Of a stretch of DNA of 64,000 nucleotides, positions 4,042 through 17,006 are shown piece after piece. This stretch comes from an uncultured Nitrospiraceae bacterium (GTDB taxonomy: Bacteria > Nitrospirota > Thermodesulfovibrionia > Thermodesulfovibrionales > SM23-35): NCBI GenBank assembly GCA_937138415.1, contig CAKZPA010000001.1, positions 62,001 to 126,000 of the forward strand, given 5' to 3'. How positions within the stretch are numbered: the first letter of the stretch is position 1; each line of letters begins with the position of its first letter. The notes under the pieces are model-generated. The model was not told where the DNA came from. It did no database searches and worked only from the letters and a program-made list of their open reading frames with translations. The translations under genes were made by a program, and so were the position numbers.

Positions 4042-5367
4042 ATGGGCATTAAGAATGTAATCTTAAAGCATAGGTTTATCTTTATCGGTTTCGTGTTCTC
4101 TTTTGCGTCTCTCTTTCTCCTCTCTCGACCTTCTCATCCACAACAGGAAAGGCATCAGAAGGTCATTGTGATCACGATCAGCGGTGTCATCAACCCGGTT
4201 TCGGCCGAATTCATCGGACGAAGTGTCAGGAAAGCCCAGGAGAAAGGTTTCGAAGCGTTGGTCATAGAGCTCGATACGCCGGGCGGACTCGATACCTCTA
4301 TGCGGAGCATCGTCAAGGATATCATCGGGAGCGAGGTACCCGTCATCGTCTTCGTTTCGCCGAGCGGAAGCCGCGCGGCCTCAGCCGGGGTCTTTCTCAC
4401 GCTCGCGGCGCACATCGCGGCGATGGCACCCGGCACGAACATCGGCGCCGCGCACCCTGTCGGAATCGGTGAAAAAATGGACAAGACGATGGCCGAGAAA
4501 GCCACCAACGATGCGGCAGCGTACATAAAATCCCTTGCCGAGCGGAAAGGGAGAAACGCGCGGTGGGCCGAAAACGCGGTGCGGAAGAGCATCTCCGCGA
4601 CAGAAAAAGAAGCGCTCAGGGAAGGCGTTATCGATCTCGTCGCGAACGACCTCGCGTCTCTGCTAAGAGACATTGACGGGCGGCGCGTGCTGACCGTCAT
4701 GGGCGAGCGGGTGCTGAAAACGAAAAACGCGGAGGTTGTCCGGGAAGAATTGGGACTGCGGCACAGAATACTCAACTTGATCTCGGATCCGAACATCGCG
4801 TACATCCTCATGCTCCTCGGCTTCTACGGCCTCTTCTTCGAACTGACGAATCCGGGATCGATCTTCCCCGGCGTCATCGGCGGCATCTGCCTCATCCTTG
4901 CTTTCTACGCTTTCCAGACCCTTCCCGTGAATTATGCGGGCCTGCTCCTCATCATCCTCGCGCTCATTCTCTTTATCCTCGAGATAAAAATAACGTCCCA
5001 CGGCGTCCTGACGCTTGGAGGCATCATTTCGATGATCATCGGCTCACTCATGCTCTTCGAATCCCCTGCCCCGTTCATGAAACTGTCTCTGGCGCTCGTC
5101 CTCCCGGCGGTCGTCGTCACCGCCATCTTCTTCACGGTCACGCTCAGCCTCGCATTCAAGGCGCAGCGAAGGAAGCCGGTGACCGGGGTCGAAGGTCTCA
5201 TTGGTGAATCGGGCATCGCTGACACCGATGTCACCAAAGAAGGGGGTATGGTGTCACTGCACGGCGAACGGTGGACAGCCTTCTCGGATGAACCGATTCC
5301 GAAGGGATCACGGGTCGTCGTCGATAGAGTATCCGGCCTCAAAGTCAAAGTGAGGAGATCGGAGTGA
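4042..5367 (+). CDS. NfeD-type membrane serine protease (ClpP-class, long NfeD1b form)
   Basis: This 441-residue membrane protein starts with a signal anchor (residues ~11-28) followed by a ClpP/crotonase-type protease domain. The nucleophile is in SRAASAG (Ser114) and the general-base lysine is in AAAYIKSLAERKG (Lys163), the Ser-Lys dyad seen in archaeal and bacterial NfeD/STOPP proteases. Four or five hydrophobic segments follow (residues ~248-365). An OB-fold NfeD domain closes the protein (GLIGESGIADTDV to VSGLKVKVRR). Long NfeD proteins cleave hydrophobic stretches of partner stomatins, and the stomatin gene follows directly. The start is chosen at 4042; TATAAT ends only 12 bases before it. 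Confidence 0.92.
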   Translation: MGIKNVILKHRFIFIGFVFSFASLFLLSRPSHPQQERHQKVIVITISGVINPVSAEFIGRSVRKAQEKGFEALVIELDTPGGLDTSMRSIVKDIIGSEVPVIVFVSPSGSRAASAGVFLTLAAHIAAMAPGTNIGAAHPVGIGEKMDKTMAEKATNDAAAYIKSLAERKGRNARWAENAVRKSISATEKEALREGVIDLVANDLASLLRDIDGRRVLTVMGERVLKTKNAEVVREELGLRHRILNLISDPNIAYILMLLGFYGLFFELTNPGSIFPGVIGGICLILAFYAFQTLPVNYAGLLLIILALILFILEIKITSHGVLTLGGIISMIIGSLMLFESPAPFMKLSLALVLPAVVVTAIFFTVTLSLAFKAQRRKPVTGVEGLIGESGIADTDVTKEGGMVSLHGERWTAFSDEPIPKGSRVVVDRVSGLKVKVRRSE

Positions 5368-5421: not shown

Positions 5422-6222
5422 ATGCCTTTTTTTGCACCATCGTTCATGACTTTTCTTTTGATCCTCTTCCTCGTCGTCTATTTCCTCTCGAGCGCGATAA
5501 AGATTCTGAAGGAGTACGAGAGAGGGGTGGTCTTCAGGCTCGGGCGGATCATTCCCGTCAAAGGGCCCGGCCTCGTCATCATCTGGCCTATCATCGACAA
5601 ACTGGTACGGGTGAGCCTCCGGATCGTGACGATGGATGTCCCGGCGCAGGACATCATCACGAAAGACAATATCACGGTGAAGGTGAACGCCGTCGTCTAT
5701 TTCAGGGTCATGGACCCCATCAAGGCGATTACTGAAGTGGAAGACTTTTATTTCGCCACATCGCAAATAGCGCAGACAACCCTCCGAAGCATACTCGGCC
5801 AGAGCCAGCTTGACGACCTCCTCACAAAACGGGAAGATCTCAATGCGGAACTTCAGAAGGTGATCGATTTCCAGACCGAACCGTGGGGCGTGAAGGTCAC
5901 GGCAGTCGAAGTCAAGAACGTCGACCTCCCAGCGGAGATGTTGAGGGCGATCGCGAAACAGGCGGAAGCCGAACGGGAAAGGCGCGCGAAAGTCATTCAC
6001 GCAGAGGGCGAATTCCAGGCGTCACAGAAACTCGCCGACGCGGCAAACATCATTTCGACCGCTTCTTCAGCCCTTCAGTTGAGATTCCTCCAGACGCTCA
6101 CCGAAATCGCGACCGAGAAGAACTCCACGATCATATTCCCCGTGCCCATCGACCTTTTGAAGCCATTCCTCACGCAGGAACAGAAGACCGTGTCACCCCA
6201 GTCTTCGGGAGAACAGAAATAG
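5422..6222 (+). CDS. SPFH/stomatin-like membrane protein (slipin)
   Basis: A 266-residue prohibitin-homology protein with one N-terminal membrane hairpin (residues ~8-25), the SPFH domain ([41 protein letters not shown]) and a C-terminal alpha-helical oligomerisation region ([20 protein letters not shown]). Stomatins assemble ring-shaped membrane microdomains and are partners and substrates of long NfeD proteases. Gene order nfeD then stomatin, separated by 54 bases, is the classical pairing. A strong AAGAAGGAGG lies 6 bases before the ATG. The C-terminal tail after PFLTQEQKT is the site where related slipins are trimmed by NfeD; that is family knowledge, not tested here. Confidence 0.92.
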
Positions 6223-6471: not shown

Positions 6472-7752
6472 ATGAACAACGTTTCGAGCCAAAAGGCACA
6501 CGATATGAGGAGACACATGCGCCACCCTGCCGCGCAGCCGGTCACGTACGCCGTGAGCGCGATCGAAACGAAGAATGGTACGTGGTTGTCCCGCAGGGGT
6601 GAACTCGTCGACGTGAGCGAGACGGGGGTCTGCATGAGAACGGATCACCCGCTTTCGCCCGGGCACGTGGTCTGGCTTGACGGCACACCCGGAACGATGG
6701 TGGGCATCGTCCGCTGGTGTCGGCAGCTCGACACGCTTTATCGCATCGGCATCGAATTGGAAAAAACCTACGTCAAGATACTTGACGACGCAACGACCCG
6801 CTTCAACGAGACACTCCTCGAAATAGAGAAGAGGTGCCAAAATCCCCATGAAGCTCCGGACGACCTCTACAAGGCAACATCGAAAGCCGTCGACGACGTG
6901 CTCGCCGCGTGCAAAATCTTCGAGAACGGAGTGCGGGATAAGGCCATGATCCATGATGCCCGCGTCCGATTCCGGGAAAAGACGAATCCAATCTTGTCGA
7001 AAAGCGTTCTCGTCACTCATACGAGGACCTGGCCCCAAGGGTACCAGGGCGACTATAAAATGCTCGAGAACCTGTACCGAAATACCCCCCTTTCGGAGGG
7101 GATAGGATACTATCTGGATTTGTGCTGTTTGAACGCGCAACTCGCCATCGCCGTGAGGAACCGACTGAAACTCCTCGAGAGCATCCTGCGGAACGAGTTC
7201 CGGCGCCGGCAGCGGCCGTCCGTCATGAATATTGCGTGCGGCTCATGCCGTGAAGTATTCGAACTGGCTGAAGATATCAAGAGGTCCGACGCCACGGTAA
7301 CCTGCATTGATCTCGATAACAACGCCCTCGCGTTCGCTGCCGACCGTTTGCTGTTCTCGAGCATGTCTCTGCTCTCCTCCGAGCAGGTAATCCTCAGGAG
7401 GTACAATGCGCTCAGAATGTTCGATCACGAACTGAACCTCGCAGAATTCGGCATGCAGGACATCATTTACAGTGTGGGCTTCTTCGATTACCTCAATTCC
7501 GATTTCCTTTCCAACCTCTTCGGATCACTCTACGATCTGCTGAACCCCGGCGGTCGCCTGATCGCTTCCTTCAAAGACGCCGACCGATACCGCCACCAGG
7601 ATTATCACTGGATCGGTGACTGGGACGGGTTTCTCCAGAGGACGGTGAAAGATTTTCGGGATATCTTCCGCTACGCTGGCATTCCCGAATCATCGATATC
7701 GGAGCTTCGAGAGGAATCGGGCATGATCGTTTTCTACCTCGTCGACAAATAG
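6472..7752 (+). CDS. PilZ domain - class I SAM-dependent methyltransferase fusion
   Basis: Residues ~10-105 form a PilZ domain with the c-di-GMP-binding signatures RHMRHP (RxxxR type) and DVSETGVCM (D/NxSxxG). After a helical linker (~105-215), residues ~235-426 form a Rossmann methyltransferase with motif I NIACGSCREVFELA, an acidic residue in CIDLDNNALAFA, and the post-motif LLNPGGRLI. The C-terminal part (NPGGRLIASF, then a tryptophan-rich DWDGFLQRTV region) resembles methyltransferases annotated as PhcB-like, which methylate 3-hydroxy fatty acids to ester signals; this is a resemblance only. The gene ends exactly where the ketosynthase-like gene starts, so it belongs to the lipid/polyketide cluster. 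Its activity may be gated by c-di-GMP (inference). Confidence 0.85.
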   Translation: MNNVSSQKAHDMRRHMRHPAAQPVTYAVSAIETKNGTWLSRRGELVDVSETGVCMRTDHPLSPGHVVWLDGTPGTMVGIVRWCRQLDTLYRIGIELEKTYVKILDDATTRFNETLLEIEKRCQNPHEAPDDLYKATSKAVDDVLAACKIFENGVRDKAMIHDARVRFREKTNPILSKSVLVTHTRTWPQGYQGDYKMLENLYRNTPLSEGIGYYLDLCCLNAQLAIAVRNRLKLLESILRNEFRRRQRPSVMNIACGSCREVFELAEDIKRSDATVTCIDLDNNALAFAADRLLFSSMSLLSSEQVILRRYNALRMFDHELNLAEFGMQDIIYSVGFFDYLNSDFLSNLFGSLYDLLNPGGRLIASFKDADRYRHQDYHWIGDWDGFLQRTVKDFRDIFRYAGIPESSISELREESGMIVFYLVDK

Positions 7753-9000
7753 ATGAACGAGAAGCGAAACATCGTGATAACTGGAATCGGCGTCGTTTCG
7801 CCCATCGGCATCGGCAAGAATGCGTACTGGGAAGGACTGATCGAGGGGAAAACCGGTTTCAAAGCGATCACGCTCTTCGAAACAGCGCCGTTCGGTATCC
7901 ATGTCGCCGGGGAGATCAGCGATTTCAACCCCGTCGATCTCCTCGGCAAGAAAGGACTTCGCGAACTCGACCGGAGCACGCGACTCGTCAATGCGGCCGC
8001 AAAACTCGCCCTCGACGACGGCCGCCTCGACATTACGGAAGACAATACGCACTCGACCGGCGTTTCTGTCGGTTCGACGTTCGGCAGTCTCCACAGCATC
8101 TCCCAGTTCGACCGCCAGGGTCTCATCGATGGGCCGCGGTACGTCAATCCTTCGCTCTTTCCGAACACCGTTCTCAATTCCCCGGCGAGCAGAATTTCCA
8201 TCCGCTTCAGAATCAAAGGGTTCAACACGACCATCTCCACAGGATTCTGCGCCGGACTCGATGCCATATCGTATGCGTGCGACTTCATACGGTTAAAGAG
8301 AGTCCATCGCGTCCTCGCGGGTGGCGTCGAAGAATTGTGCGAGGAGACGTTCCATGGTTTCCACGCCCTGGGATGTCTCTCGGGGTCCGATGGTTCCGAG
8401 CCGCGGTGCTGCCCTTTCGACAGGAGGAGAAACGGGACCGTGCTCTCCGAAGGCGCGGCCGTTCTGATTCTCGAGGATGAGGAGCAGGCGGTGCGGAGGG
8501 GGGCGCACATCACGGCACGGATACTCGGATGCGGAAACCATTTCGACCCGGAAGCGAAGAGAGATTTTAGCCACGAAGGGAAAGGATTGAAGGAGGCGAT
8601 CGCGCTCGCCCTGCACGATGCCGGTATCGCTTCTGAGGACATCGAGTGTATAATTGCGGGTGCCAATTCGACGAAAGGGCTCGACAGGCTGGAGACGCGC
8701 GCCATTAAGGAGATGTTCGGAAATCGTGCGTACGCGATACCGGTCACCGCGATAAAATCCATGATCGGCGAGTCCTTTTCCGCCTCAGGCTCGTTGGCAG
8801 TGGTCGCCGCTGCCGGCATCGTCACGCGTCACGTCATTCCGGCGACCGTCAATTACCGGGAAAGAGATCCCGAGTGCGACCTTGACTGCGTCCCCAACGA
8901 ATCAAGGCAAAAGAACGTCGGCACGGTGCTCGTCCTTGCAGCCGATCCCTATGGAAACAACTCTGCCGTTATCGTGGGAACCTTTCCCGGAAATGGATAG
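7753..9000 (+). CDS. Ketosynthase-like protein lacking all catalytic residues (chain-length-factor/KS-beta type)
   Basis: This 415-residue thiolase-fold protein aligns end to end with FabF/KAS II, from MNEKRNIVITGIGVVSPIG to AVIVGTFPG. The active-site triad is gone. The nucleophile position, which is Cys in STAC(A/S)xG, is Phe165 in ISTGFCAG; a cysteine sits one place later. The first catalytic His of AHGTxT is Gly303 in IAGANST. The second His of SMIGH is Glu340 in SMIGESF. Loss of all three is the signature of chain-length factors, which pair with an active ketosynthase and set product length. A true ketosynthase is encoded two genes downstream. The ATG follows the previous stop directly, so translation is coupled. 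It could still have another non-condensing role. Confidence 0.85.
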   Translation: MNEKRNIVITGIGVVSPIGIGKNAYWEGLIEGKTGFKAITLFETAPFGIHVAGEISDFNPVDLLGKKGLRELDRSTRLVNAAAKLALDDGRLDITEDNTHSTGVSVGSTFGSLHSISQFDRQGLIDGPRYVNPSLFPNTVLNSPASRISIRFRIKGFNTTISTGFCAGLDAISYACDFIRLKRVHRVLAGGVEELCEETFHGFHALGCLSGSDGSEPRCCPFDRRRNGTVLSEGAAVLILEDEEQAVRRGAHITARILGCGNHFDPEAKRDFSHEGKGLKEAIALALHDAGIASEDIECIIAGANSTKGLDRLETRAIKEMFGNRAYAIPVTAIKSMIGESFSASGSLAVVAAAGIVTRHVIPATVNYRERDPECDLDCVPNESRQKNVGTVLVLAADPYGNNSAVIVGTFPGNG

Positions 9001-9006
9001 ACGAGG

Positions 9007-9444
9007 ATGACGCTCGATTTCGAAGGAATAAAAAACCTGCTCCCGCAGCGGTTCCCGATCATCATGATCGATAGGATCCTCGAGCTCGATCCCGGCAAGT
9101 CCGCGGTGGCGGTAAAGAACATCAGCGGCAACGATATTTTCTTCCTCGGCCACTTTCCCGACAAGGCTATCATGCCCGGCGTGGGCATCATAGAGGCTAT
9201 GGCACAAACTGCCATCGTCCTTTTCGCCTCAGCGGACAGACACGATTCGCGGGGCAATCTTTATTTTCTCGGCTCTGTCAAAGCACGCTTTTTCCATCCC
9301 GTCGTCCCGGGCGATCAGATACTCATTACGGCGGTGAACGTGAAGTCTCTGCCCGCCGGAGCCTATGTCGCAGCAGAGGCCAAAGTGGGAGATCAAAAGG
9401 TTTCCGAGGCTGAACTCGTTTTCAGTGTGAAAAGAAATGACTAA
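9007..9444 (+). CDS. FabZ-type (3R)-hydroxyacyl-ACP dehydratase
   Basis: A 145-residue hot-dog-fold protein with the FabZ active-site segment LGHFPDKAIMPGVGIIEAMAQ. It contains the catalytic histidine and, on the following helix, the glutamate. LLPQRFPIIMIDRIL is the typical FabZ N-terminus. The enzyme removes water from beta-hydroxyacyl-ACP to make a trans-2-enoyl chain. Its position between two ketosynthase-type genes, 6 bases after the first and overlapping the second by 8, shows it belongs to a dedicated chain-building pathway rather than only housekeeping fatty acid synthesis. A GACGAGG ribosome site overlaps the upstream stop. No ketoreductase gene is nearby. Confidence 0.92.
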   Translation: MTLDFEGIKNLLPQRFPIIMIDRILELDPGKSAVAVKNISGNDIFFLGHFPDKAIMPGVGIIEAMAQTAIVLFASADRHDSRGNLYFLGSVKARFFHPVVPGDQILITAVNVKSLPAGAYVAAEAKVGDQKVSEAELVFSVKRND

Positions 9445-10651
9445 GAGGGTCGTCATCACGGGACTGGGAGTCGTGTCGTCCATCGGCATCGGGTGGAGAG
9501 ACTTCTGGCATAGTCTTCTCGCAGGCACGTCGGGCATAAGCCCCGTAACGTCTTTCGATACCTCGGACCACTTCACGCGAAAAGGCGGCGAGATCAAACA
9601 GTTCCGCCCTGAGCGATTCATGCCCGAAGAAGACGTGAAATTCCACAACCGTGCATCCCATTTCGCTGTCGCCGCTGCCAGGCTCGCGCTCGAGGACAGC
9701 CGCCTCACCGACGATGATCTTTCGCGGTGCGGGACAGGCATCTGTATGGGGACAACCCTCGGGTCCGTGCAGAGCGTGGAGATCATCAATGAGATGGACG
9801 TCATCCGCAAAGAGCAGACGATCCCTGCGGAATTGATCGGCCAGGTGCCGACGCACTCCACACCCTCTCTCGTATCCCGGCACTTCGGCATCAAAGGCCC
9901 CCTCATGATGTTTTCGACAGCGTGCGCGGCGGGGAACTACGCGATCGGGTACGGTTTCGACCTCATCCAGCTTGGAAAGGCGGATATCGTCCTCGTCGGC
10001 GGTTCCGACCCCTTCTCGAAAGTGGCATTTACCGGGTTCAACCAGCTCTCGGCGGTTGCTCCCGAACAATGCCAGCCCTTCGACAAGAACAGGAAAGGAA
10101 TGATGGTGGCGGAAGGCGCTGGGATCCTCGTCCTCGAATCGCTCGACAATGCGCGCGAGAGGAGCGCGCCGATCTACGCTGAATTGCTCGGTTACGGATT
10201 GAGCTGCGACGCCGGTCACATGACGAATCCTTCGATCGACGGCGTCGCGACATGCATGGTGAAGGCGCTTCAGGCGGCCGGCATCGACGCGAATGACGTC
10301 GATTACATCAGCGCCCACGGCACTGGGACACTCGCGAACGACAAAACCGAATGCGCCGCGATCAAGAAAGTGTTCGGGGATCGGTACCGGGAGATACCGA
10401 TCAGTTCCATCAAGTCCATGATCGGGCATACGATGGGGGCGGCATCGGCGCTCGAAGCCATCTGCTGTGCGCTCACGGTGAAACATGACATCATCCCGCC
10501 GACAATAAACTGGGAGACGGCCGATCCCGAGTGCGACGTGGACTGCGTGCCCAATAGGGCGAGGGAACACGTCGTCACCATCGCGTTGAACAACTCGTAT
10601 GCGTTCGGTGGCAATAACGCCTCACTGGTTCTGAAAAAATACATAGCGTGA
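9437..10651 (+). CDS. Beta-ketoacyl-ACP synthase II (FabF-type), catalytically complete
   Basis: A 404-residue condensing enzyme with an intact Cys-His-His triad: Cys163 in FSTACAAG, His294 in SAHGTGT and His331 in SMIGHTMG. It ends with the usual FabF tail NNSYAFGGNNASLVL. It catalyses decarboxylative Claisen condensation of malonyl-ACP with an acyl chain. It overlaps the FabZ gene by 8 bases and is followed by an acyl carrier protein gene at 12 bases, so these are made together. With the triad-less homologue upstream it forms a KS-alpha/KS-beta pair as in type II polyketide, aryl-polyene and some ladderane-type clusters. The pairing is inferred from gene order and residues. Confidence 0.92.
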   Translation: MTKRVVITGLGVVSSIGIGWRDFWHSLLAGTSGISPVTSFDTSDHFTRKGGEIKQFRPERFMPEEDVKFHNRASHFAVAAARLALEDSRLTDDDLSRCGTGICMGTTLGSVQSVEIINEMDVIRKEQTIPAELIGQVPTHSTPSLVSRHFGIKGPLMMFSTACAAGNYAIGYGFDLIQLGKADIVLVGGSDPFSKVAFTGFNQLSAVAPEQCQPFDKNRKGMMVAEGAGILVLESLDNARERSAPIYAELLGYGLSCDAGHMTNPSIDGVATCMVKALQAAGIDANDVDYISAHGTGTLANDKTECAAIKKVFGDRYREIPISSIKSMIGHTMGAASALEAICCALTVKHDIIPPTINWETADPECDVDCVPNRAREHVVTIALNNSYAFGGNNASLVLKKYIA

Positions 10652-10662
10652 AGGAGGAAAAT

Positions 10663-10935
10663 GTGCTCATGGACGGAAACAGCGTGGAACGGGAGGTCAT
10701 CGCCATCATCGGAGACGTCTCCGGATTCGATGTCCAAGAGATACGTCCCGATATGAAACTCGCGGAGGACCTCGAAATCGACTCCATCAAAGCGATCGAG
10801 ATCGTCGTGGCCATCGAGAAGAAATATAAGTTAAAGATCAGGGATGAAGATGTCCCGTCGATCACGACCGTCGGACAGGCGATCAGTCTCGTCAACAACC
10901 TGCTCACTGCCCAGGAGACGCATGCAGAAGCGTGA
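10663..10935 (+). CDS. Acyl carrier protein
   Basis: A ~90-residue four-helix carrier protein with the phosphopantetheine attachment serine in EDLEIDSIKAIEIV. The GTG at 10663 is preferred because AAGGAGG ends 5 bases before it; the ATG at 10669 is an in-frame alternative, 11 bases from the same site. A GTG at 10648 lies upstream of the ribosome site and is unlikely. The ACP would carry the growing chain between the FabZ, ketosynthase and chain-length-factor proteins. The DSIKAIE form rather than the housekeeping DSLDxVE form is typical of ACPs in secondary lipid and polyketide clusters. It overlaps the next gene by 14 bases. Confidence 0.92.
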   Translation: MLMDGNSVEREVIAIIGDVSGFDVQEIRPDMKLAEDLEIDSIKAIEIVVAIEKKYKLKIRDEDVPSITTVGQAISLVNNLLTAQETHAEA

Positions 10936-12340
10936 TGCCGACCGTTACGACGCTGTCATAATCGGTGCAGGGATCGGCGGCTTGGTCTGCGGTTGCTATC
11001 TCGCAAAAGCGGGGCTTAAAGTACTCATCGCAGAGCAACACGCGAAGCCCGGCGGGTACTGCACGTCGTTCCGAAGAGGTGGGTTCACATTTGATGCCGC
11101 CGCACACTCTTTCGGGGGATATCGAGATGGTGGACTGGTCAATCGCGTTTTTCGCACTTTTGCAATAAACGAATTGATATCGATTGCGCGATATGATCCG
11201 TCCGATAGTATCGTCACCCCTGATTACCACGTTTCATTTTGGGCCGATGTAGCCAGGACAACGGAAGACTTCAGAAGCGCTTTTCCACACGAACATCGTG
11301 CGCTGAAAGATTTTTTTGACTTCTTAATCGCCCCTGATCCTCTGTCTTTGGCTCATATGCGAAAGTGGACCATGAAGCAGCTTCTCGATAAATACTTCAG
11401 GGACCAACATTTAAAAAGCATCCTGGCTTTTCCGTTATTTGGAAATGGCGGACTCCCTCCGTCACAGATGTCCGCATTCATTGGCATTAACATATTCCGT
11501 GAATTCATGCTTGATGGCGGCTATTATCCAAACGATCGTATGCAAAGCTTACCGGATGCTTTTGCTGCGCGATTCCGCGAATATGGCGGGGACTTAAAGT
11601 TGTCAGCCCACGTCGATACCATTACCGTCAAGGACGGGAAAGCAGAAGGTATACGGATTAAAGGAGAGAGGTTCTATCCCGCAAAATATGTCATAGCGAA
11701 TTGTGATACCAGACAGACGTGCCTCCTCCTCATTAAGGGACAGACGATCCATGAAGCTTTCATCACAATGATCAAAAAAATGGTGCCCTCACTTTCGATG
11801 TTCATTGCATACCTAGGCCTGAACAAGGATATCGATATGCTACCGTTGCCCGGGAGCAATATATGGTTTCTTTCGGAATACGACTTGGACAAAGCTTATT
11901 CTGCCGCGCAAAAGGGCGACCTCTTCGGGATCGACAGGTTCATGGTTCGCGTCTTACCTGGCAAGAAGTGTATCATGGCTCTTGTCAATTCATCGTTCAA
12001 AAACAAACACTTCTGGCAACAGAATAAAAAGAACTATCTGCATCTGTTTATGAAATCGATAGAGCGGACTGTAATACCGGGTTTGACCTCCGCTGTTTCC
12101 TTCTGCGATGCAGCGACTCCGATGACGCTTTTCCGCTATACGCTCAACTACAGAGGAGCCGCCTACGGGTGGGCAAGTACGCCAGCACAAATAGCAAATA
12201 CTGATTTTAGACTTTCCACCATAATAAAGAATTTATACAGTGTTGGACACTGGACAACACAAGGGTTAGGAATTCCAGGGGTAATATACTCCGCTTATGA
12301 CACCGCGCAAAGGATTCTAAAAAGAAAAGACACTGTTTAA
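10922..12340 (+). CDS. Phytoene-desaturase/carotenoid-isomerase-like FAD oxidoreductase
   Basis: A 472-residue flavoprotein of the CrtI/CrtISO/amine-oxidase superfamily. The dinucleotide fold VIIGAGIGGLVCGCYLAKAGL is followed by EQHAKPGGYCTSFRRGGFTFDAAAHSF, and the C-terminal FAD loop TQGLGIPGVIYSAYDTAQ is present. Family members desaturate or isomerise polyenes; in ladderane and aryl-polyene-like clusters such enzymes act on the ACP product. The ATG at 10922 has AGGAG 4-8 bases upstream and overlaps the ACP stop; a start at 10844 would run far into the ACP gene. From about 11150 onward the codon use turns clearly more AT-rich than in the preceding genes. The hydrophobic substrate is unknown. 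Confidence 0.85.
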   Translation: MQKRDADRYDAVIIGAGIGGLVCGCYLAKAGLKVLIAEQHAKPGGYCTSFRRGGFTFDAAAHSFGGYRDGGLVNRVFRTFAINELISIARYDPSDSIVTPDYHVSFWADVARTTEDFRSAFPHEHRALKDFFDFLIAPDPLSLAHMRKWTMKQLLDKYFRDQHLKSILAFPLFGNGGLPPSQMSAFIGINIFREFMLDGGYYPNDRMQSLPDAFAARFREYGGDLKLSAHVDTITVKDGKAEGIRIKGERFYPAKYVIANCDTRQTCLLLIKGQTIHEAFITMIKKMVPSLSMFIAYLGLNKDIDMLPLPGSNIWFLSEYDLDKAYSAAQKGDLFGIDRFMVRVLPGKKCIMALVNSSFKNKHFWQQNKKNYLHLFMKSIERTVIPGLTSAVSFCDAATPMTLFRYTLNYRGAAYGWASTPAQIANTDFRLSTIIKNLYSVGHWTTQGLGIPGVIYSAYDTAQRILKRKDTV

Positions 12341-12354
12341 TTGTTTCTTATAGA
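12327..12354 (+). promoter_or_regulatory. Possible weak promoter of the histidine kinase gene
   Basis: AAGACA (12327-12332) and TATAGA (12349-12354) are separated by 16 bases, and the ATG follows 6 bases later with no Shine-Dalgarno. Each hexamer matches consensus at four of six positions, so this is tentative. Confidence 0.35.
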
Positions 12355-12360
12355 AATTTT

Positions 12361-14154
12361 ATGGTGCACAAATTTTTAGCCACTTATGCAATCGATGACG
12401 AGAAACATCTTCATGCCCGCCGGGCAATCGTCGATCTGACTCACACGTACGGACCTATCCTCCTCATTATCGGAGCTGTGACGTTCCTCTCGCTCGCTGT
12501 GCTTGATTATTTTGTGATCCCCGCAAACTTCACGCTTTTTTTGATATATCGGTTAATCGCTTTTTTTCTGCTCATCTTCCTAGCACTACTTATAAGACTG
12601 AGAAAAAACATCGCGTTCCAATCAGTGATAATATCTCTTGCCGTCATTGTTACGTGCGTGACGATTGAACTGATGATCCTTGCATATGGAGGTCACCGCT
12701 CGCCTTACTATGCCGGAATAATTCTCGCACTCATTTTCATTTTCGGATTTGTTCCTGTTTCTCCTCTGTTAACCGCTTTTTTTGCTTTTTTTGCCTACGG
12801 CGTTTACGTCATACCTATCCTTATATTTGACACCATCACCGATCATAGGCTGTTCTTGATGAATAATGTTTTTTTAATCGCTTCAATCAGTATTGGACTT
12901 TTCTGGAGATATCAGAGCCACCAACAACTACTTAGGAACCTTACGCTCGAATATGAATTACAAAAGGATAAAGCTCGACTTAAAGAATATTCGGAACAGC
13001 TTGAGAAATTAGTAGATGAGCGCACAAAAGATCTCGCCGTTTCCGAGTCGTGGCACCGGTCGATATTCGAGAACGCTACCGACGGCATCGTCATTCTCGA
13101 CAGGAACGGCCGGATCCTCAACGTGAATCAGAGAGCATGCGAGATCACGGGACTTGAGAGAGAGGCGCTGATCGGCAACGATATCGCGTCGATCGAGGGC
13201 ACGAATGACCCTGAACGTCACCGTGAGAGAATGCGCAGGATCCTCGCCTCGGAATCGATCATCTACGAAATCGCCCTCGACAAAGACAGGGGCGGTACCG
13301 TCATTATCGAAGTCAGCGCAAAAGCAATCGACATCGCCGGTGACACGTACATCCAGTCATTCTACAGGGATGTCACCGAGAAGAAGAGGTTGGAGGAACA
13401 GTTGATGCATTCGCAGAAGATGGAGTCGCTAGGCATTCTCGCCGGCGGCATCGCCCACAACTTCAACAACATCCTGACCTCGATTCTGGGCTACGCGCAG
13501 ATCCTGCTCGAGTTCGGGAATCTTGATGACCTGTCGAGACAGAGGGTCTTGAATATCGAAAGCTCCGCGCGCAAGGCGGGAATCATGATCGCTCAAATGT
13601 TGCGGTTCGCGCGGCGGGAACCCCATGAAATGCTGACGATCGATCTCCACGATGTGATCAATGACACCGTTAAGCTTTTCGAGGGGGCCCTCCCAAAGAC
13701 GATCACATTCAACCTCGCCCTCGACAAGAACACGTATATTATCAGGGGGGACCCTAACCGACTCGAACAGGTTATCATGAATCTCCTCGTGAACGCAAAA
13801 GACGCTATGCAGGAGGGAGGCGTTCTGACCATGTCGACGTGCTTCGTGGACGCGGAAACCGGGCACGGCGACATACCGGCCTTTGTAACGCCCGCGCGAT
13901 ACGTCGTCCTGTCGATATCCGATACCGGGACGGGCATACCAGCGGAGATCCTGCCCAGAATATTCGATCCGTTCTTTACGACGAAGGAAAAAGGAAAGGG
14001 TACCGGTCTCGGTCTCGCTACTGTTTACGGGATCGTCAAAGATCACAAGGGATACGTCGATGTGAAGAGCGTCGCCGGCAAAGGAACCACCTTTGATATC
14101 TACTTTCCGGTCATCGACATGATCGTTGAGAAGCTTCCCGCGTCGCAGCAGTAA
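12361..14154 (+). CDS. Membrane PAS sensor histidine kinase
   Basis: A 597-residue kinase. Residues ~31-185 contain about six transmembrane helices with almost no periplasmic loops, so a ligand would have to be lipophilic or membrane-borne. A short coiled coil (195-225) leads to a PAS domain (~228-340). The dimerisation helix has the phospho-acceptor His366 in [19 protein letters not shown], and the ATPase domain shows [43 protein letters not shown]. There is no receiver domain and no response-regulator gene nearby. The DNA for the membrane part is AT-rich and changes to GC-rich near 13020, just before the PAS domain. It lies 20 bases after the flavoprotein gene, so co-expression with the lipid cluster is likely. 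Confidence 0.9.
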
Positions 14155-14170: not shown

Positions 14171-15334
14171 TCACAACCATCTCCTGAAGACGCCGAAGAA
14201 CCGTTCCTTCACCCTCTCCCACGGGGGACGCCGTTTCCATTCTTCAAGCCTCACCTGCGACGAATGTGCGAGGTCTTCGAAGAAGAGTGCCGTCATCCGG
14301 TTTCCGAAATCCCGATCGATGATGCCGACATTCCCCTCGTCATTCTTTCGCAGGGACTGGAAATCGAGGTTCGCAGACCCGATCACACTCCAGACACCGT
14401 CAAAGACAGCCGTTTTCGCGTGGAGGATTTCCCCCTCGTAGGTATACACGTCTACACCTGCCTTCAAGAGCTTCGTGAAAAATGCTCTTCCCGCATAGTA
14501 CGCCGCGACGACGTCCGACTTTCCCGGGAGCAGGAGTCTTACGTCCACGCCACGGGCCTCGGCTTCCGCCAACGCGTGGAGCATCCTCCTGCTCGGCGCG
14601 AAGTACGCCGTCGTCAGGTAGATACAGCGCTGCGCCGCCGCGATGCTGAAATAGAGAAGTTTTCGCATTCTCCGGCGACCTCTCGCCGAGTCGGCGAAGA
14701 TCGGAATGACGGGCAAGCCGTCCACCACGGGAGAAACTGTTCCTTCAAAACCGATCGGATCGCCCCCCCACGCCCGCCAGCTCTTCTCGAATATCGACAG
14801 GAGTGTCCTCGCGATCGGTCCTTCGAGCAGGATGCCAGTATCTCTCCAGCCCCGCACCTGCCGCAGGCGATGAAACCCTCTGTACTCGTTCGCGATGTTC
14901 AATCCCCCGGTAAAAACTTTCACTCCGTCGACGATAATCAACTTTCTGTGATCGCGGTGAATGTAGCGAAACGGTCTCGACCATTTGAACGGACGCGACG
15001 CTCTGATCTCGACCCCCGCTTCCTTCATTTCCGCCCAAAATCGGCGGGGGGTGCCGAAGGAGCCGAAGTGATCGTAGAGGACGCACACCCGTACCCCTTG
15101 CTTCGCCTTTCTCTTCAAAATCGCCGCAAGCTCGGTTCCCGTCTCGTCGTTGCGAAAGATATAGAATGCAAGACAGATGAGGTGCAGCGCGGATTCGAGG
15201 GCATCGAAGATCGAGCGAAATGAATCGGCGCCTTTCCAGAGGAGTGTCACCCTGTTGCCGTCGGTAAAGGGAAACCCGTAGAGGCCTTCTATCGCCGGTC
15301 GCGTCAATTCGAGAGAACGTGTCCCACCCGCCAT
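14171..15334 (-). CDS. Phospholipase D family / cardiolipin synthase-like protein
   Basis: A 387-residue protein with two HKD catalytic motifs: HRDHRKLIIVDG with GGLN, and HAKTAVFDG with GSANLD. This is the paired arrangement of cardiolipin synthases and other phosphatidyl-transferases that exchange phosphatidyl groups through a phospho-histidine. It lacks the two N-terminal transmembrane helices of classical Cls, so it resembles ClsB/ClsC-type soluble or peripheral enzymes. The start at 15334 (ATG before AGGTRSLELT) is chosen because upstream sequence in frame reads as antisense of the pepA region and shows no protein-like pattern. No good Shine-Dalgarno is visible. It converges on the histidine kinase with a 16-base gap. 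Confidence 0.85.
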   Translation of the reverse strand: MAGGTRSLELTRPAIEGLYGFPFTDGNRVTLLWKGADSFRSIFDALESALHLICLAFYIFRNDETGTELAAILKRKAKQGVRVCVLYDHFGSFGTPRRFWAEMKEAGVEIRASRPFKWSRPFRYIHRDHRKLIIVDGVKVFTGGLNIANEYRGFHRLRQVRGWRDTGILLEGPIARTLLSIFEKSWRAWGGDPIGFEGTVSPVVDGLPVIPIFADSARGRRRMRKLLYFSIAAAQRCIYLTTAYFAPSRRMLHALAEAEARGVDVRLLLPGKSDVVAAYYAGRAFFTKLLKAGVDVYTYEGEILHAKTAVFDGVWSVIGSANLDFQSLRKNDEGNVGIIDRDFGNRMTALFFEDLAHSSQVRLEEWKRRPPWERVKERFFGVFRRWL

Positions 15335-15526
15335 GAAGACATGATTACGAAAAAAAAGGCTCCTGTCAATTCGTCGCACGTCCCCGAATCTCCCGCTTGA
15401 CCATTCTCGTCGCCTCCCGTCTACGTGCGACGTGACGTTTAGAGACGGCCCTCGATCTGCCCGTTCGTATGCTCTTTCCTCCGCCGGGGCTCGCTGCCGC
15501 ACGCGACCTTTTTTGCGGGAATCCGC

Positions 15527-15532
15527 TATAAT
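15527..15532 (+). promoter_or_regulatory. Perfect -10 box (TATAAT) upstream of pepA
   Basis: TATAAT lies 20 bases before the ATG at 15552 and overlaps another in-frame ATG at 15531. That position rules out 15531 as the start if this promoter is used. The -35 region is weak (GCGACC, 18-base spacer). Confidence 0.55.
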
Positions 15533-15551
15533 GAACCATATCTTTACCGCA

Positions 15552-17006
15552 ATGGATATTTCGATCCGGAAACAGAGAGAAACCGATTGCGCCTGTGACG
15601 CGTTAATCCTGCCTTTTGTCGAGAACGAAAGAGAGCGATACGCCGATCTCCATCCCTCGCTCGCGGCTCTCATCGGCAGGGTATTCGGCAGAGAATTTCG
15701 CGCCCAGAAGAACGAATCGCTCCTCGTTCCGGCGCCCCCGGAGATAAAGCCGCAGAGAATTTTTTTCATCGGTCTCGGCAAAAAAGGGGATCTTTCTCCG
15801 GAGCGAGTCCGCCAGGCGGGCGGAAAATCAGGGACGAGCCTCCGCGAGGTCCGTATGAACGACATTGCCCTGTCAACGACTCTTCTGCGTGCGCACGGAT
15901 TGTCCGAGGCCGACTTCCTCGAGGGATTGCTCCTCGGCACCTATCGATTCCGAAAGTACGCCAGCGAAAAAAAGACGAGCGAGATCGCGCGCTGTACCGT
16001 CCTCGCGCAGCCGTCGACAGACCTTCGGACGAAAGTGAACTGGATACGGACGCTTTCATCGTCCGTTCACTTTGCGCGAGATTTAGTGAACACCCCGGCG
16101 AACGATATGACGCCATCGGACCTCGCCCGGGCGGCGTGCTCCCTCCGGACTTCCCGGCTCAGAGTGACGATCCTCGACGAGAAGGATGCCAAAGGTCTGG
16201 GCATGGGATCTTACCTCTCCGTCGCGCGCGGATCGGATCAACCTCCCCGATTCATCATACTCGAGTACAGGGGATCAAAGGGAAAACCGATTGTTCTCAT
16301 CGGGAAATCCGTTACCTTCGACAGCGGCGGGATCTCTCTGAAGCCGGCGGACGGCATGGAAAAGATGAAGTACGACATGGCGGGAGGTGCGGCGGTGCTC
16401 GGTGTCATGAGGGCGATCTCTCTGGCGCAGTTGCCGGTCCATGTGATCGGGATTCTGCCCGCTACGGAGAATCTGCCGGGGGGATCAGCGTCCCGGCCGG
16501 GAGATGTCGTCCGCTCGCTCAACGGCAAGACGATCGAGATCATCAGTACCGACGCTGAAGGACGCATGACCATTGCAGATGCGATCGCTTTCGCATTACG
16601 CTATAAACCGAGAGCGATTATCGACATCGCGACGCTGACGGGCGCGTGTGCCATCGCGTTCGGCCATTGCGCGATCGCAATGATGGGGAATAGGAGAGAG
16701 CTGCTCGACGCAGTGAAAAGAGCGGGCGAGCAGACACAGGAGACGGTGTGGGAGATGCCGCTTGCCGAAGACTGTGCCGAGTATCTGAAGAGCGACGTGG
16801 CTGATCTCAAAAATACAGGCGGGAAAAGTGGCGCGCTCCTCACCTCCGCGTACTTTCTCTCCCAGTTCGTCGGAGACACGCCGTGGGTTCACCTCGACAT
16901 AGCGGGAACCGCGTGGGCGGAGCGAGAACGACCCTACATTCCCAAAGGAGCTTCGGGCATCGGCGTCAGACTGCTCGCGACCCTCGTGAGGGACTTCGCA
17001 CGATAA
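15552..17006 (+). CDS. pepA: Leucyl aminopeptidase (M17 family)
   Basis: A 484-residue M17 aminopeptidase that removes N-terminal residues from peptides with two metal ions in the cytosol. The metal and active-site segments are visible: IGKSVTFDSGGISLKPADGMEKMKYDMAGGA, NLPGGSASRPGDVV, the signature NTDAEGRL-like STDAEGRMTIADA, and ATLTGACAIAFG. The N-terminal macro-like regulatory domain spans ~1-160. The ATG at 15552 is chosen because TATAAT overlaps the in-frame ATG at 15531. The stop overlaps the next start by one base. The 217 bases between the PLD start and this gene contain only this promoter-like box. Confidence 0.93.
   Translation: MDISIRKQRETDCACDALILPFVENERERYADLHPSLAALIGRVFGREFRAQKNESLLVPAPPEIKPQRIFFIGLGKKGDLSPERVRQAGGKSGTSLREVRMNDIALSTTLLRAHGLSEADFLEGLLLGTYRFRKYASEKKTSEIARCTVLAQPSTDLRTKVNWIRTLSSSVHFARDLVNTPANDMTPSDLARAACSLRTSRLRVTILDEKDAKGLGMGSYLSVARGSDQPPRFIILEYRGSKGKPIVLIGKSVTFDSGGISLKPADGMEKMKYDMAGGAAVLGVMRAISLAQLPVHVIGILPATENLPGGSASRPGDVVRSLNGKTIEIISTDAEGRMTIADAIAFALRYKPRAIIDIATLTGACAIAFGHCAIAMMGNRRELLDAVKRAGEQTQETVWEMPLAEDCAEYLKSDVADLKNTGGKSGALLTSAYFLSQFVGDTPWVHLDIAGTAWAERERPYIPKGASGIGVRLLATLVRDFAR

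Follow-up and report, generated by a model that had tools for sequence, protein, structure and literature searches.

A ladderane-operon-type acyl synthase cassette between a PilZ-methyltransferase and a membrane sensor kinase in Nitrospirota

The window analysed here, a stretch of 64,000 nucleotides from an uncultured Nitrospiraceae bacterium (assembly GCA_937138415.1, contig CAKZPA010000001.1, positions 62,001 to 126,000), holds a run of seven plus-strand genes between positions 6472 and 14154. The core of this cluster is of a known kind, sharing homology with the kuste3603-3607 genes of the operon proposed for ladderanes in Kuenenia stuttgartiensis, and is set in a new, conserved frame of a methyltransferase and a sensor kinase. 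The first gene (6472..7752) encodes a protein of 426 aa in which a PilZ domain is joined to a class I S-adenosylmethionine (SAM) methyltransferase (Pfam PilZ 27.2 bits, cut-off 22.5; Methyltransf_12 31.3 bits, cut-off 30). It is followed by genes for a chain-length-factor-like ketosynthase (KS) without catalytic residues, KSβ (7753..9000; assigned by its residues, its match to PDB chain 9s5h_C and its place in the tree); a FabZ-type 3-hydroxyacyl-ACP (acyl carrier protein) dehydratase (9007..9444; Pfam FabA-like 85.9 bits, over the NCBIfam cut-off for NF000582 and under that for TIGR01750); an intact ketosynthase, KSα (9437..10651; assigned by its catalytic residues and its match to 9s5h_B); an ACP (10648..10935; Pfam PP-binding 43.6 bits); a CrtI-like FAD oxidoreductase (10922..12340; Pfam Amino_oxidase; NCBIfam crtI_fam 145.8 bits, under the cut-off of 238); and a membrane PAS sensor histidine kinase (12361..14154; Pfam PAS, HisKA and HATPase_c).

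These seven contiguous genes and their families had been proposed in an earlier reading of the same DNA, here called the original prediction, and open frames, Pfam and NCBIfam all agree with it. Successive genes are spaced by 0, +6, -8, -4, -14 and +20 bases. The kinase therefore does start 20 bases after CrtI, and the first six genes touch or overlap as claimed, except that KSβ and FabZ are separated by 6 bases. Such tight spacing of seven genes on one strand is as expected of one transcript; promoter and terminator scans returned fewer sites than in shuffled sequence. For CrtI the ATG at 10922 was chosen in place of the start at 10844 given by the automated open-reading-frame list, because the resulting length lies in the range of most relatives, 470-487 aa. 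As predicted, open frames and Pfam revealed no ketoreductase (KR), acyltransferase or thioesterase among the seven genes, and neither an acyl-CoA ligase nor a starter-unit gene was found in the cluster by the same means. The kinase has six N-terminal hydropathy peaks, in line with the six helices ascribed to it, but the first two overlap, which leaves five or six helices.

The distinction drawn earlier between a triad-less and an intact ketosynthase was borne out. KSβ (F163, G298, N300, T302, K328, E333) has Phe at Cys163, Gly at His298 and Glu at His333 and keeps Lys328, while C163, H298, K328 and H333 are all present in KSα. The catalytic Cys, His and His occur in 35 of 35 KSα rows examined, and both catalytic His are lost in 39 of 39 KSβ rows, two of which (G011, G018) keep Cys163. 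Among PDB chains, KSα matched 9s5h_B best (480 bits), followed by the ishigamide KS (364) and a FabF (317); for KSβ the series was 9s5h_C (382), 9s5h_B (254) and a FabF (241). The KS sequences of this solved complex (9s5h/9s5i) and those of the window are mutual best solved matches. Chain 9s5h_C carries V163, N298, Y300, G302, K328 and E333, the residues printed for Kuste3606 in Table 2 of Rattray et al. (PMC2649909), and in the KS tree the 9s5h chains nest among the KSα and KSβ sequences of Brocadiales; judged by these two sequence features, 9s5h is probably of anammox type. The residue set of the window KSβ is identical to that of neither Kuste3606 nor Kuste2805.

In the KS tree, thinned beforehand by a list of nine Brocadiales loci (eight of them with KS rows), the window KSα and KSβ fall in sister clades to Kuste3605/3606-type Brocadiales sequences, and 31 KSβ rows lie on one side of a branch with a support of 100 (reduced row set). 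A KS phylogeny that placed both genes with FabF had been named in advance as speaking against the original prediction. Approximately unbiased (AU) tests rejected that grouping for KSα and KSβ, with p 1.8e-5 and 4.2e-63, respectively, on a set from which the G329 rows, the third type-B KS, the KSβ rows of L063, L079 and L080 and 28 type-A rows picked at random had been removed (types are described below); trees and tests thus refute a housekeeping FabF identity for either KS. That the cluster consists of duplicated housekeeping fatty-acid synthesis genes is scarcely credible, even with FabF and FabZ as the best NCBIfam models and KSα above one FabF subfamily cut-off, since separate FabF, ACP, FabG and FabZ genes lie elsewhere in the genome and the cassette is conserved across sister loci. 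In this genome (2.1 Mb in 57 contigs), a second, better-scoring FabZ is found on contig C17, and FabF, ACP and a FabG-type KR stand together on contig C26, which upholds the predicted dedicated KSα/KSβ pathway with private ACP and dehydratase. A fourth KS of the same genome (L147 3155+, contig C45), a 610-aa open frame, groups with FabF rows. The AlphaFold2 model of KSβ (predicted local distance difference test, pLDDT, 90.4) has a KS fold, and its fold search gave near-equal Z scores for FabF (63), the ishigamide KS (61.6) and the actinorhodin KS (59.8), which is uninformative on lineage; 9s5h was not among the 50 entries listed. The five best PDB chains for the window FabZ (8ayd, 7qv0, 8ayb, 8ayi, 8ayc) are presumably anammox proteins, and the best PDB matches of the ACP are mycobacterial AcpM.

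The original prediction had held that the cluster matches no class that can be named, a view not supported by comparison with the kuste3603-3608 gene list (Table 2 of PMC4790861). Like kuste3603-3607, the window unites an ACP, a FabZ, an intact KSα, a KSβ without the catalytic His and a CrtI-like enzyme in one cluster. The order differs, being KSβ-FabZ-KSα-ACP-CrtI in the window and ACP-FabZ-KSα-KSβ-CrtI in Brocadiales; the B12 radical SAM gene that follows CrtI in the Brocadiales operon is not in the window cluster, and relative to the kuste operon the PilZ-methyltransferase and membrane kinase are additions. Twenty of the 21 Brocadiales KSβ loci read have the order ACP-FabZ-KSα-KSβ-CrtI-radical SAM, and the contig-cut 21st has KSβ-CrtI-radical SAM, so that the radical SAM gene follows CrtI in 21/21; the L026 protein has a B12 domain, and that genome also has hydrazine synthase alpha. 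KSβ (E<=1e-90) was detected in 35/39 Brocadiales genomes and hydrazine synthase alpha in 31/39. Seven of the eight genomes in which the latter was unmatched have KSβ, and ladderane-type operons in such a background include L172, L173, L176, L182 and L185 (G069, G063, G078, G098 and G096, respectively); these Brocadiales may be incomplete genomes or non-anammox members. In G073 a second pair of KS genes, accompanied by a KR, lies near the ladderane-type operon (L191 15346-19901).

Shared as these five functions are, ladderanes themselves are a very unlikely product of the window cluster: it has no radical SAM gene, at E<=1e-40 nothing in the genome matches the B12 radical SAM protein of anammox bacteria, and kuste3603-3608 expressed together in E. 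coli reportedly gave no ladderane (PMC4790861). At the same threshold, matches to that protein occur in 33/61 relatives, at most 40% identical, including the cassette-bearing G014 and G007. In the G154 cassette, ACP and CrtI are separated by a radical SAM gene (L215 5686-6987, minus) that scores 150 bits to the anammox protein and has no B12 domain match; this cassette may be intermediate between the two cluster types. Lycopene was not made by the CrtI-like kuste3607 (PMC4790861), and the window enzyme may therefore act on the acyl chain.

A different product has also been attached to such genes. The window's genome encodes a single PF08541 protein; we take PF08541 to be a domain carried by OleA, and a sole protein leaves room for FabH and not for OleA as well, so that OleA in addition to FabH was rejected. 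Polyunsaturated C31 hydrocarbons formed via OleABCD, as proposed for Desulfotalea, are on this count highly improbable here, although similar clusters were tied to such hydrocarbons by Rattray et al. (PMC2649909).

To follow the cluster through the phylum, KSβ was searched for in 295 genomes drawn from Nitrospirota and was found (E<=1e-90) in 31 of these and in 24 of 135 genera, a patchy distribution. Twenty-seven loci of the window's type (type A) were read, namely the window, 16 from 60 relatives and 10 from the phylum draw, with candidates G129 and G327 left out. The methyltransferase gene precedes KSβ in 26 of these, the contig of the 27th ending first, and the kinase follows the cassette in all 16 loci with a contig long enough to show it. 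A further five genomes have the kinase on a second contig, after the remaining CrtI (G007, G017), ACP-CrtI (G011, G012) or KSα-ACP-CrtI (G026); the cassettes of G026 and G038 are each divided between two sites. The search for the same gene order in other genomes that the original prediction had proposed thus finds it recurring through the phylum, beyond chance, and the link to a sensor kinase is real and conserved. FabZ is present in 16/27 type-A loci, CrtI in 14 of the 16 that reach the kinase, and a FabG-type KR in 15/27, so that its absence from the window is not a trait of the class. The CrtI gene of the window has a GC content at third codon positions of 0.52, compared with 0.62-0.76 for the other cluster genes, and this, together with ACP-to-kinase loci lacking CrtI in G005 and G260, suggests that CrtI may be a later or exchangeable part of the cluster.

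Five of the 31 KSβ genomes carry clusters of other types. Four of them (G239, G241, G266, G292; type B) have the order KR-KSβ-ACP-FabZ-KSα, no methyltransferase of this family and low-scoring kinases nearby; the fifth is G329. Beside KSα, type-B clusters have a third, very divergent ketosynthase-family gene (L209 10443, L211 953, L212 12632).

The two framing genes also behave as a unit of their own. Methyltransferase orthologues (E<1e-80) occupy 23 places in 22 of 61 genomes, and at six of six places without KS genes, in five genomes (G022, G045 twice, G046, G052, G054), the methyltransferase stands directly before the kinase. Both G045 pairs (L140, L141) are of this kind, and the best KSβ match in the five genomes was no better than 4.5e-82. 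On the methyltransferase tree a minimum of two changes is needed to account for the KS-free state. Between a conserved methyltransferase and kinase, the synthase cassette is thus variably present or absent. The sensor domain of the kinase (E<=1e-5), by hydropathy and alignment a conserved multi-helix membrane domain, co-occurs with the methyltransferase (20/2/7/32 in 61 genomes; Fisher p 2.3e-8, ignoring kinship). The window kinase has no C-terminal receiver domain, which is present in the relatives checked (L105, L205, L138); three outgroup rows of the kinase tree sit on very long branches.

In the methyltransferase, the PilZ residues R13xxxR17 and D47xS49xxG52, which we take to be cyclic di-GMP (c-di-GMP) motifs, are conserved in a 58% relative. 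The PilZ part is present in the window's family and in G056. The G024 methyltransferase is PilZ-less and has two receiver-PilZ genes directly upstream (L120 6170-7721), which together with the variable presence of PilZ indicates that a c-di-GMP link is recurrent and not universal. The structure model of the methyltransferase has a pLDDT of 51. Against PDB the methyltransferase gave two matches (E 0.16 and 0.28) and against PHROGs none, and a tblastn search of plasmids returned two records, both one polyketide synthase (PKS) of an Enterobacter plasmid; the end of this type I PKS of Enterobacter ludwigii (L193 6001-6762) shares 27.5% identity with the methyltransferase across 256 residues. The window methyltransferase may resemble PhcB. 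In the PhcB-PhcS system of Ralstonia a fatty-acyl methyl ester is the signal (PMC11960443), and by analogy a methyltransferase gene adjoins a sensor histidine kinase gene in both cases; unlike PhcB-PhcS, the window unit has a PilZ domain and a dedicated acyl synthase. No description of a PilZ-methyltransferase and kinase frame was found in the open-licence literature, among the matches listed.

The homology of the core, the active-site states of the two KSs, the gene order with its recurrence and a variably present cassette between methyltransferase and kinase were established directly, and on these we build the following model. We consider it about an even bet (roughly 50%) that the cluster is a ladderane-operon-type acyl factory housed inside a methyltransferase-sensor unit, whose unsaturated chain is methylated and monitored by the kinase. 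Malonyl units would be condensed on the private ACP by the active KSα together with the inactive KSβ, the latter setting chain length. Keto groups would become double bonds through the private FabZ and a FabG ketoreductase, which must here be supplied by general fatty-acid synthesis (C26). These double bonds would persist, as no enoyl reductase is encoded in the cluster to remove them; by type II logic, KSα/KSβ with dehydratase and ACP in the absence of enoyl reductase points to an unsaturated chain. The CrtI-like flavoenzyme would add or shift double bonds, methylation of the chain, perhaps at the carboxyl, would fall to the PilZ-methyltransferase, probably under c-di-GMP control, and the membrane kinase would sense the product or the resulting membrane state. 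We infer the unsaturated nature of the product, its methylation site, the c-di-GMP control and the kinase ligand; carboxyl methylation and sensing by the kinase are suggested by the pairing of the two framing genes and the PhcB-PhcS analogy. A methylated, unsaturated product is plausible.

Several observations weigh against this model. FabZ is missing from 11 of the 27 type-A loci, one of them cut, no ACP was recognised in L106, and two of the 16 kinase-reaching loci (L109 of G005, L205 of G260) have no CrtI between ACP and kinase. The kinase sensor domain occurs without the methyltransferase in 7/61 genomes, several methyltransferases lack the PilZ domain, and KSα passes the cut-off of the NCBI FabF subfamily PRK07314 (412 vs 387), though not that of the fabF equivalog.

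In a tentative alternative, the boldest considered, the PilZ-methyltransferase would be a signal synthase and the kinase its receptor in c-di-GMP-gated signalling, with the cassette, which would have been acquired or lost between the two genes as one block, supplying a special unsaturated acyl chain that is released as a methyl ester. The persistence of methyltransferase and kinase without acyl genes argues against a membrane-lipid module, in which a polyunsaturated, methylated or stiff acyl group enters membrane lipids and the kinase acts as a homeostatic membrane sensor. This module is a serious possibility, though well short of even odds. It draws on the kinship with the operon proposed to make membrane ladderanes, on the multi-helix membrane domain of the kinase and on the genes upstream, which in the window encode an NfeD-type membrane protein (4042..5367, plus; Pfam NfeD domains) and an SPFH/stomatin-like protein (5422..6222, plus; Pfam Band_7 131.8 bits) and in several relatives include VTT genes. 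NfeD, SPFH and VTT genes also precede the KS-free pair of G052, and SPFH and a gene of the family of the G052 VTT gene precede that of G046. The G005 cassette has, between FabZ and KSα, a second methyltransferase matching cyclopropane synthases (L109 2220-3146, minus), which would suit such a module. However, the cluster has no acyltransferase or acyl-CoA ligase, and the NfeD/SPFH association is found mainly within the window's family and is not kept at most loci outside it. Downstream of the kinase, a convergent minus-strand gene (14171-15940) is, by eye, putatively of phospholipase D / cardiolipin-synthase type.

A soluble or pigment-like polyene made by a highly reducing type II PKS, in ishigamide or aryl-polyene style with methyltransferase and kinase in tailoring and regulation, is unlikely. 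The ishigamide Iga11-Iga12 pair (6kxd) likewise combines an active KS and an inactive partner with dehydratase and ACP, Iga11 ranks second for KSα and above every FabF, and 15 of the 27 loci have a KR. In contrast, highly reducing type II PKS clusters contain a KR, which the window cluster lacks, and the partner genes are others; thioesterase, acyltransferase and starter-unit genes are missing, and KSβ scores 382 bits against the 9s5h chain and 254 or lower against the other KSs and chain-length factors (CLF) listed. Aryl polyene clusters presumably have a KR, a thioesterase, an acyltransferase and a second KS beside the KS-CLF pair, all of them missing among the seven window genes. This aryl polyene gene content is taken in part from PMC8358021.

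Ladderane-type clusters outside anammox bacteria are already in print (PMC2649909, PMC9902471, PMC11968836), and the clusters of non-anammox bacteria called 'ladderane' by antiSMASH resemble the window in bringing ladderane-like genes outside that group; the phyla named for them in the parts of PMC9902471 and PMC11968836 covered do not include Nitrospirota. Ladderane biosynthesis is a long-open question in bacteria that are unavailable as pure cultures. With the radical SAM gene naturally missing and KR, FabZ and CrtI variable, the homologous core described here offers a route to learning the core product before ring chemistry. The conserved methyltransferase-kinase frame raises the separate question of whether the chain serves as a signal or as a membrane component that is monitored, and hints that an unusual product resembling a fatty acid is put to a regulated or signalling use.

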